A model generated the notes under the pieces. That model saw only the letters and a program-made list of their open reading frames with translations. It searched no databases and was not told where the DNA came from. Positions 49,125 to 51,617 of a stretch of 64,000 nucleotides of DNA are shown here, piece by piece. Source of the DNA: Geothrix sp. 21YS21S-4 (GTDB lineage Bacteria; Acidobacteriota; Holophagae; Holophagales; Holophagaceae); NCBI RefSeq assembly GCF_030845995.1, contig NZ_CP132719.1, positions 930,001-994,000 of the forward strand, written 5' to 3'. Made by a program: the position numbers and the translations under genes. Numbering within the stretch: position 1 is the stretch's first letter; each line of letters starts with the position of its first letter.

Positions 49125-50006
49125 TCAGCCGATGTGGTCGTCGTCCCTCAGTTCGCCGGATTCGATCAGGTTGGACAGGAGGCGCTGGAGTTCGTCCTGC
49201 CCGATGACGCCGCGGCGCTGGAACAGCTTGATGAGGCCCATCACCAGGGTGCGGGTGTGGTAGGTCTCCAGGCGCGGCACGGTGTCGCGCAGGGTGCGGC
49301 TGTGGATGAGCTCCGGCGGCACCGCGGGGATGGCGGGCGGGGGCGGCGGCGCGGGCGAGGCGCCCTCGAACAGGCCGAAGGGATCGATGTTCACCGGCTG
49401 AGTGGGCATCCGGTCGCCGCTGAAGAAGGGATCCGGAGAAAAGCCCGATTCCGCGGGAGCGGAAGGCACCGGTAGGGGCTGGAGGCTGAAGGTCACGGGC
49501 AGCGCGTCGTCCACCGGAGGATGGGAGTTCACTTCCACGGTGAGGGCTCCGCCCGTCGAAGGGCCGTCCACGCGGCGGTAGAGCTCTCCGATCGCTTTCC
49601 GAAGGGCGCTGTGGGAGGCCACCACGGGCTGGATGTGCAGGCCGGAGGCGAACCGGGCGCTGTCGATGGCGTTCAGGTCCGAGGGATCCGACATGGCCAG
49701 CACCAGGGCCTTGGGTTCCTTCACCGCCACCGGCAGGACCGTGAACTGGTCCGCCAGGCGGTGGGGCACGAGCTTGAGCACCTGGGGCGGAACGTCGAGG
49801 TTGCGGACGTCCATCTGGGGGACGCCCGCCTGGCGGCTGAGGAAGTCCATCAGCACTTCCTCGCTGATGTAGCCCAGGGCCACGAGGTTGCTGCCCAGGC
49901 GCCCCCGGGCGATCTTCTGGTGGGTGATCGCGCTCTGGAGCTGCGCCGGGGAGATGAGGCCCGCTTCCACGAGCAGTTCACCCAATCGCTTGATCGTTTG
50001 CTGCAT
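49125..50006 (-). CDS. MshEN-domain (c-di-GMP-binding) protein without the pilus ATPase domain
   Basis: 293 residues. Residues ~5-65 carry two copies of the MshEN motif: RLG-x2-LV-x2-GLI-x4-L-x5-Q (RLGELLVEAGLI, then AQLQSAITHQ), and five residues later RLG-x2-LV-x2-GYI-x4-L-x5-Q (RLGSNLVALGYI, then LMDFLSRQ). In MshE and relatives each motif clasps c-di-GMP. The T2SSE-N fold continues to ~145. Unlike PilB/GspE/MshE, no Walker boxes follow; instead there is a Pro-rich region (~190-240) and a helical tail (~250-293). It may be a stand-alone c-di-GMP receptor that acts on pili or secretion. The ATG at 50006 begins the first motif helix. Confidence 0.87.
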   Translation of the reverse strand: MQQTIKRLGELLVEAGLISPAQLQSAITHQKIARGRLGSNLVALGYISEEVLMDFLSRQAGVPQMDVRNLDVPPQVLKLVPHRLADQFTVLPVAVKEPKALVLAMSDPSDLNAIDSARFASGLHIQPVVASHSALRKAIGELYRRVDGPSTGGALTVEVNSHPPVDDALPVTFSLQPLPVPSAPAESGFSPDPFFSGDRMPTQPVNIDPFGLFEGASPAPPPPPAIPAVPPELIHSRTLRDTVPRLETYHTRTLVMGLIKLFQRRGVIGQDELQRLLSNLIESGELRDDDHIG

Positions 50007-50087
50007 GGTGGATCCTGAGGGAGTGGTGCACAGAAGGTCATCTCCAAGGTAACTTCTTTCAAGGCTTTTTGCTCGGCCGGAGGGGGC

Positions 50088-50711
50088 ATGGACACCGAGG
50101 AGCTGTGGCGGGCGGCCTTGCACGACTTCAACAACCTCATGGCGGGGCTCCAGGGCGTCCTGGACCTCAGCGATCCCGGCCTTCCGCTGGATTCCCGGAA
50201 CCGGCTGCGGCTGGGCTCCATCCTCGAGGACGGCAAGACGTTGGTGGCCATGGCCCGTGCCCTCGCGCTGAGCCGCATCCCCGACGCCGGGCTGGCCGCC
50301 TGGGGGGAGTGGGAAGCGGGTCTCCGCCATCGCCTGGTGCCCGTGGCCGACCTGTTCCGCTGTCCGGTGGACCTGGTGGATGCGGGGGCGGCCACCTATC
50401 CCTGGCCCGCGCCCCTGTTTCAGGACTGGGCCCTGGCCTTCACCCGCCAGCTCCTCCCGTGGGCCGTGCCGGGTCCCCTGCGGCTGGAAGCGGAAGTGGG
50501 GGAGAACGGATGGGAGCTGCGGTGGATCACCGACGCGCCGCTGCCCTCGGCCCTCCAGTTGTCGCCGCCCGCGGACGCCCTGCGGAACCTTCCCTCCTTC
50601 TGGCTGCGAAGCATGGCTGACCAGCTGCGCCTGACGGTGAAAGCCGAAGGCGGAGCCATCCGGATCCGAATGCCCCTCCCGGTGGTGGACGGCCAGATCC
50701 GGGTGTCCTGA
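50088..50711 (+). CDS. ChpT-like histidine phosphotransferase (DHp plus degenerate kinase domain)
   Basis: 207 residues. The N-terminal helices resemble a histidine-kinase dimerisation domain with the phospho-histidine motif in LHDFNNLMAGLQG (His12). The remainder (~95-205) has the size of a kinase catalytic domain but no N, G1 or G2 boxes, so it should not bind ATP. This matches the plan of ChpT, the dimeric phosphotransferase between CckA and CtrA in Caulobacter. There is no membrane helix. The stop overlaps the next gene's ATG as TGATG, so it is made together with the response regulator, its likely partner. An alternative is a pseudokinase or Spo0B-like protein. Confidence 0.68.
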   Translation: MDTEELWRAALHDFNNLMAGLQGVLDLSDPGLPLDSRNRLRLGSILEDGKTLVAMARALALSRIPDAGLAAWGEWEAGLRHRLVPVADLFRCPVDLVDAGAATYPWPAPLFQDWALAFTRQLLPWAVPGPLRLEAEVGENGWELRWITDAPLPSALQLSPPADALRNLPSFWLRSMADQLRLTVKAEGGAIRIRMPLPVVDGQIRVS

Positions 50712-51412
50712 TGCCGGAGGTTCCCCCACTTCGGATCCTGGTGGTGGAATCCGCGCTTTCCGAGGCCGGTGAGGTCCGCGAGGGCCTCGAAAGGATGGGC
50801 CTCGGCGTCCACTGGGCCGACAGCGGCGCGGAAGCGCTCGCGCTGTGCGGAAGCGAACCCTTCGACGCCGCGGTGCTGGATGCGGCGCTCCCCGACATGT
50901 CCGGCGTGGTGTGGGTGCGGCGCCTGCGGGAGTCCGGCGATCCCCTGCCGGTGATCTTCCTCTCCGCCCAGGCCGACCTGGACGATCGCCTCCGGGGCCT
51001 GGAAGCCGGGGCGGACGATTACCTGGCGCGGCCCTGCGGCCTTCCGGAGATCGCGGCCCGGGTGCGGGCCGTGGCGCGGCGCGGGCGGGGAAGGGCCCCC
51101 CAGGGGCTCGTCCATCTGGCGGACCTGGTGTGGGACGCGCGGCGCCGGCACATCAGCCGGGCCGGACGGCGCATCGATCTCACCCTGAAGGAATACGCCC
51201 TTCTGGCCCTCCTGCTGGAGCACGTGGGCCGCGTGGTATCCCGCCAGGAGGTGGCGGAGGTGGTCTGGGGAGCCCAGGTGGTGGACGGCAACGCCATCGA
51301 CGTCCAGATCGCGCGCCTCCGGCGGAAGGTGGACCATGCGCACCCCGTCAAGCTGATCCACACGCGCCGGGGCATCGGCCTCGTCCTGGAAGTCCACCCC
51401 GCCTTCGCCTGA
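50711..51412 (+). CDS. OmpR-type response regulator with Lys-to-Arg change
   Basis: 233 residues. Receiver domain residues ~7-120, with the phospho-acceptor Asp57 in AAVLDAALPD, Ser in VIFLSAQ and an acidic pocket reduced to VVES. The conserved lysine that normally precedes Pro near residue 107 is Arg (YLARPCG). This may alter phosphorylation or output. The winged helix (~130-228) has IDLTLKEYALLALLLEH, VVWG and HTRRGIGLVLE, as in OmpR/PhoB/CtrA. It is translationally coupled to the ChpT-like gene. The pair could form a phosphorelay end. Confidence 0.87.
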   Translation: MPEVPPLRILVVESALSEAGEVREGLERMGLGVHWADSGAEALALCGSEPFDAAVLDAALPDMSGVVWVRRLRESGDPLPVIFLSAQADLDDRLRGLEAGADDYLARPCGLPEIAARVRAVARRGRGRAPQGLVHLADLVWDARRRHISRAGRRIDLTLKEYALLALLLEHVGRVVSRQEVAEVVWGAQVVDGNAIDVQIARLRRKVDHAHPVKLIHTRRGIGLVLEVHPAFA

Positions 51413-51467
51413 TGCGGGAAGGCGCTTCCGGAGGCTTGCCGGTACAATTGGAGGTTTGGATGAGGCT

Positions 51468-51617
51468 ATGAAGTTCCACATCGAGACCTGGGGCTGCCAG
51501 AACGGGGCCCCCTCCGCGGGCCGGCGCAGCCGGGGCGCGGGAGCGTCGTGCGGGGCACGGCGCGATCGGGGGGTGGTCCCCTTCATCCAGCGGCGCCAGG
51601 TTCGAGGCCTCTCATGA
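51468..51617 (+). pseudogene. Duplicated miaB start in a 49-residue leader frame
   Basis: The first 11 residues, KFHIETWGCQ after the Met, are identical to MiaB's N-terminus; 29 of 33 bases match. The frame then runs through GC-rich unlike sequence to a TGA that overlaps the true miaB ATG (ATGA at 51614-51617). It has its own good ribosome site (TTGGAGG at 51449). So it could be translated as a leader coupled to miaB, or be the scar of a partial duplication with inserted filler. Confidence 0.78.

Follow-up and report, generated by a model that had tools for sequence, protein, structure and literature searches.

Few lineages are known to have histidine phosphotransferases derived from histidine kinases (Spo0B, ChpT, and PhyT). 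Two coupled genes in a 64,000-nucleotide stretch of DNA (hereafter the window) from a Geothrix species of the Holophagaceae, in the phylum Acidobacteriota, raise the question of whether a counterpart of the CckA-ChpT-CtrA relay exists outside Alphaproteobacteria. In that relay ChpT, which does not phosphorylate itself, carries phosphate from a CckA-like receiver to CtrA. The initial annotation, made from the sequence of the window, had proposed that the first gene encodes a ChpT-like phosphotransferase and the second a coupled CtrA/OmpR-type regulator. Both reading frames are present where that annotation placed them and share a one-base overlap (TGATG; Table 1). The host genome is complete and comprises 3.08 Mb. 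None of the ten papers listed by a literature search describes a counterpart of ChpT in Acidobacteria or in Geothrix.

Table 1. Features of the locus. Positions are those of the window, except in the last row, where the loci of relatives are named.
Feature	Position	Strand	Remarks
Kinase-fold histidine phosphotransferase-like gene	50088..50711	+	ATG, 207 aa; DHp hairpin residues 3-61, degenerate CA domain 68-196
OmpR/CusR-type regulator gene	50711..51412	+	ATG, 233 aa; predicted pseudo-receiver with E13-S14, D57, S85, R107
H12-D-F-N-N16 codons (predicted phosphoacceptor His and HDxxN motif)	50121..50135	+	Pattern match and alignment
MshEN-domain gene, putative c-di-GMP-receptor type, divergent	49125..50006	-	293 aa; PF05157 E 4e-19
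Conserved site CCAAGGTAACTTCTTTCAAGG in the shared divergent promoter	50044..50064	no strand	Alignment of intergenic regions
Short spacer where relatives with the regulator have the sensor kinase, usually with a TonB-dependent receptor	51413..51613	+	
TonB-dependent receptors in relatives	L100:4591-6675; L106:4627-6660; L112:6658-8619		

Domains, conservation, and fold of the 207-residue protein

The product of the first gene gives a weak, sub-threshold match to HisKA in Pfam (E 0.0059, residues 5-64), and neither it nor any of its 36 orthologues matches HATPase_c. A confident AlphaFold model (pLDDT 89, pTM 0.84) contains a HisKA-type helical hairpin and, C-terminal to it, an alpha/beta kinase-like domain, which agrees with the kinase dimerization domain and the catalytic-domain-sized region recognized in the initial annotation. 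The absence of ATP boxes from that region is likewise borne out by alignment, as the N, G1, F, and G2 boxes are missing from all orthologues. With proline and other residues at the ATP-box positions, the protein does not qualify as a functional histidine kinase. When these positions are assigned from the register of helices and strands in the model, R120 and P124 would occupy the N-box Asn positions of kinases, and D-A-P-L-P would stand in place of the D-x-G-x-G of the G1 box. The would-be lid/F-box/G2-box stretch is short compared with that of the hybrid kinases from the same genome and holds neither box.

Orthologues are present in 33 of 37 Geothrix genomes, the other four being fragmented assemblies, and a profile search yields matches that cover all or nearly all of the protein in four other Holophagaceae genera. 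Elsewhere in Acidobacteriota the profile matches large kinases at the histidine box only, besides one weak C-terminal match, and the protein was found only in Geothrix and these four genera. Residues H12, D13, N16, R120, P124, and P153 are invariant in 24 aligned sequences from five genera. For close pairs of species the gene has dN/dS values of 0.05-0.25, with or without the regulator alike, which together with its wide occurrence in Geothrix indicates a real conserved gene under purifying selection.

Comparison of the model with known structures reveals the ChpT-type architecture of a DHp hairpin with its His and a CA-like domain devoid of ATP boxes. Foldseek ranked the AdeS kinase first (7.6e-8) and ChpT second, third, and fifth (E about 4e-7), with structures 4fmt and 4fpp among the top matches, and a second structure aligner gave Z scores of 13.9 for DivL, 13.8 for HK853, and 12.3 for ChpT. 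These scores, obtained with a predicted structure, lie close together within the kinase fold and indicate that fold rather than membership in ChpT. Spo0B is not among the 50 fold matches listed, which is no evidence against a kinship of fold. Neither a detectable ATP box nor a fold unlike that of a histidine phosphotransferase was found, in keeping with the initial annotation.

The profile search against the ChpT and Spo0B families that the same annotation had suggested gave no match to either. The protein does not match PF10090 (HPTransfase) at E <= 5, nor do its 36 orthologues at E <= 1, and the Spo0B Pfam family is not among its matches at E <= 5. A profile search of the PDB with the protein family returned nothing credible, and the polyubiquitin hits of a PDB sequence search with the single protein were dismissed as repeated short, sub-threshold matches. 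Matches to PF10090 in the same genome are located in long ORFs of kinase size (548-1465 aa) and not in the 207-residue protein.

ChpT has a Bergerat-like domain in which the lid is replaced, and bound ATP was not seen in its crystals (PMC3433190). The Geothrix protein resembles ChpT of Caulobacter in size and in the combination of a DHp hairpin with a Bergerat-like domain that lacks the ATP boxes and lid. However, there is no detectable sequence similarity between them, the host is not a member of Alphaproteobacteria, the histidine box is of the HDFNN type, and the constant neighbour is an MshEN gene, with no CtrA or CckA orthologue identified here. The evidence supports a sequence family separate from ChpT. 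PhyT has been proposed to be a decayed kinase with Spo0B and ChpT as precedents, and phosphatase or phosphotransferase roles have been suggested for the degenerate kinases PhyT and PhyP (PMC5898713). These proteins, Spo0B, and the Geothrix protein share a presumed origin as histidine kinases whose catalytic domain decayed (PMC5898713), but PhyP and PhyT are membrane-anchored and carry an HRxxN motif, and the sequence of Spo0B is unmatched to the 207-residue protein.

The adjacent regulator and its sensor kinase

The product of the second gene belongs to the OmpR/PhoB class, with Pfam matches to Response_reg (PF00072, 5.8e-21) and Trans_reg_C (PF00486, 5.3e-20). It is nearer to CzcR/CopR (TIGR01387, 182 bits) than to CtrA, scoring 114 bits with the CtrA equivalog NF045991, whose cut-off is 350. 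The reported retention of the Asp and replacement of the invariant Lys by Arg are confirmed by alignment (D57 and R107), and S85 is also kept. A further change, absent from the earlier account, is E13-S14 in place of the E-D acidic pair, which leaves an incomplete phosphorylation active site with Ser in place of the second metal-binding acid and Arg in place of the Lys. Among 19 syntenic orthologues, which are canonical at the residues present, all 19 have the Lys and all 18 that are complete for the acidic pair have E-D, so the window species alone combines E-S with Arg. Pseudo-receivers often lack the second acid (DD2) and often have Arg at the Lys position (PMC12632262), and the window regulator is predicted to carry a pseudo-receiver that would be inactive. 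Identity between the window species and its relatives is 50% in the receiver and 64% in the DNA-binding domain, compared to 72% and 81% among the relatives. Both values are lowered, and therefore both parts of the regulator have drifted.

Each of the 19 other Geothrix genomes that carry the regulator (52-58% identity) also encodes, next downstream, the regulator's own membrane histidine kinase, which has HAMP, HisKA, and HATPase_c domains (HATPase_c 1e-22 to 1e-27), and a TonB-dependent receptor usually joins the pair. Geothrix rubra is one of the relatives with the intact kinase. With the kinase directly behind the regulator at locus L094 as the query, orthologues (64-100% identical) were found in exactly these 19 genomes and in none without the regulator. 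The window species has the regulator without the kinase: its genome contains no orthologue at E <= 1e-30, and no kinase remnant was seen in the translated spacer downstream. To judge from the sequences, the regulator is what remains in this species of a separate two-component system; the sensor kinase was lost, presumably before the receiver changed. Regulator presence changes at least eight times on a quick tree of the phosphotransferase-like protein, which is weak in places, indicating that gain or loss is frequent. In many relatives, a TonB-dependent receptor gene lies downstream of the phosphotransferase or kinase gene and is missing beside it in the window, which suggests an older operon that lost this gene too.

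A comparable case is CosR of Campylobacter, an OmpR-type regulator with an altered receiver whose adjoining kinase gene is missing (PMC3938529). In the CosR/CosS system, as in the Geothrix one, the kinase lies beside the regulator in certain species only, and the species without it have a changed receiver active site. The Asp is lost in CosR, whereas here it is kept and the second acid and Lys are changed.

About half of Geothrix, Geothrix fermentans DSM 14018 among them, keep the phosphotransferase-like gene without the regulator. Wherever the regulator is present, the two genes lie close together or overlap, and some co-function of their products is conceivable. The hairpin residues expected to contact a receiver were chosen according to the HK853 specificity mutants A268, A271, and T275 relative to His260 (PDB titles). 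At H+8, H+11, and H+15, nearly all of the phosphotransferase-like sequences have Gly/Gly/Leu with or without the regulator, in contrast to Asn/Ser/Asn in the true kinase of the regulator. The interface thus neither resembles that of the kinase nor tracks the regulator, which favours partners in trans. The reading of the regulator as a dedicated CtrA-like target is not supported, given its own kinase and normal receiver in 19 of 19 relatives, the species that lack the regulator, and this unchanged interface. The CtrA-like coupling is a species-specific remnant, and a ChpT-to-CtrA-like relay at this locus is not supported. What survives of the proposed counterpart outside Alphaproteobacteria is the DHp hairpin with a degenerate CA domain.

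Origin, partners, and competing explanations

The hairpin aligns with HDFNN kinases in hhalign (probability 89.5%, E 2e-6), a match that extends no further than the beginning of the domain after the hairpin. No sequence match of the CA domain to hybrid kinases was detectable by hhalign, and its kinship with them rests on fold. A pattern search revealed nine other HDFNN proteins in the genome, of which eight are PAS or GAF-HisKA-HATPase-receiver hybrids and one has a receiver at the front. CckA is also of the HDFNN type. These hybrids of CckA architecture share the histidine box and hairpin with the 207-residue protein but differ in having full HATPase_c and receiver domains, neither of which it contains. 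Decay of an HDFNN-type hybrid kinase is the parsimonious reading of its origin, and the protein seems to be a histidine phosphotransferase or phosphatase that arose independently. Six canonical Hpt domain matches exist in the genome, which rule it out as the sole phosphotransferase and mean that it is not needed to explain hybrid-kinase signalling.

At all 49 loci examined, some of which represent the same genome taken from two collections, a divergent MshEN gene starts roughly 75-125 bp upstream of the phosphotransferase-like gene. The far flanks vary: one side has lepA or feoB, and the opposite side has miaB, the regulator, or a TonB receptor. The MshEN gene is the stable partner gene, although synteny does not prove interaction. 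Besides matching PF05157, its product carries the two 24-residue motifs of MshEN proteins, spaced by 5, in the published relaxed form (residues 7 and 36); the strict published motif is not matched. MshEN is a c-di-GMP-binding domain (PMC5013675), and the protein is predicted to be a receptor for this compound. With such a stable partner, the output of the phosphotransferase may be tied to c-di-GMP signalling.

We assign a probability of roughly 60% to the explanation that the locus combines a kinase-derived histidine phosphotransferase of the Holophagaceae with a separate, orphaned regulator whose receiver has degenerated. The 207-residue protein would probably form a dimer in which His12 on the DHp hairpins is the phosphoacceptor, and the CA domain, having lost ATP binding, would serve as structure or as a docking surface. 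Phosphate would probably be accepted in trans from a receiver, with the C-terminal receivers of the eight hybrid kinases as candidate donors, and then be passed to, or removed from, other receivers. The regulator would be the response-regulator half of a kinase pair that lost its kinase, with subsequent degeneration of the receiver, and is probably phosphorylation-independent or decaying. A more specific proposal, to which we give a low probability, is that a dimeric phosphotransferase arose in Holophagaceae, independently of ChpT, from a CckA-type (HDFNN) hybrid and connects the phosphorelays of hybrid kinases with c-di-GMP by way of the MshEN protein.

A phosphatase or a scaffold fits the predicted fold as well as a phosphotransferase does. 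In HisKA kinases, dephosphorylation uses the acid and the Asn/Thr position of the histidine box, and HDxxN keeps both. A protein acting mainly as a phosphatase or phosphate sink for receivers would have a precedent in the roles proposed for PhyT/PhyP (PMC5898713), and the 19 species in which it occurs with a complete kinase-regulator pair would have no need of a second donor. Nevertheless, its interface residues are unlike those of the adjacent kinase, and the present evidence does not distinguish this role from forward transfer; we consider a predominantly phosphatase function unlikely. Phosphate flow from a hybrid kinase through His12 to D57 of the adjacent regulator would account for the overlapping genes, the ChpT-like fold, the retained Asp, the CckA-architecture kinases in the genome, and the lack of another kinase for the regulator at the locus. 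Such a relay is improbable given that every relative with the regulator also has a kinase of its own for it, that the phosphotransferase-like gene often occurs without it, that the receiver in this species lacks the second metal-binding acid and the Lys, and that the interface does not follow the regulator. Least probable is a DivL-like pseudokinase scaffold, which would bind the MshEN protein or receivers and take no part in phosphate chemistry. The highest structural Z score belongs to DivL (tied with other kinases), and the CA domain is kept despite the loss of its ATP boxes, but a pure scaffold would not need the invariant His12, Asp13, and Asn16. Furthermore, DivL has Tyr instead of His.

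If the kinase-derived phosphotransferase explanation is true, the decay of kinases to phosphotransferases has recurred, in this case in Acidobacteriota without sequence kinship to ChpT, and the protein provides a natural comparison for the role of a dead CA domain. The regulator represents a clean natural case of receiver decay and cognate kinase loss, with 19 intact relatives as controls.

Several smaller features were seen around these genes. Positions 51468-51613 carry a 33-base near-copy of the miaB start (ATGAAGTTCCACATC...) upstream of the true start at 51614. The translation of the spacer beside it resembles the spacer at the same place in the relative's locus L089, and there is no other good copy of the spacer in the genome; the near-copy and spacer look like an old insertion or duplication. 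In the alignment of the intergenic region (50007-50087 in the window), Geothrix species that have the regulator and those that lack it share the core CCAAGGTAACTTnATTCAAGG of the promoter site, and the site as a whole is strongly conserved across the genus irrespective of regulator presence. The C-terminal segment of the MshEN protein (LVLGLIRLFQRRGIIGQDELQRLLANLIESGE; 49125-49290), which follows a Pro-rich linker, is also conserved.
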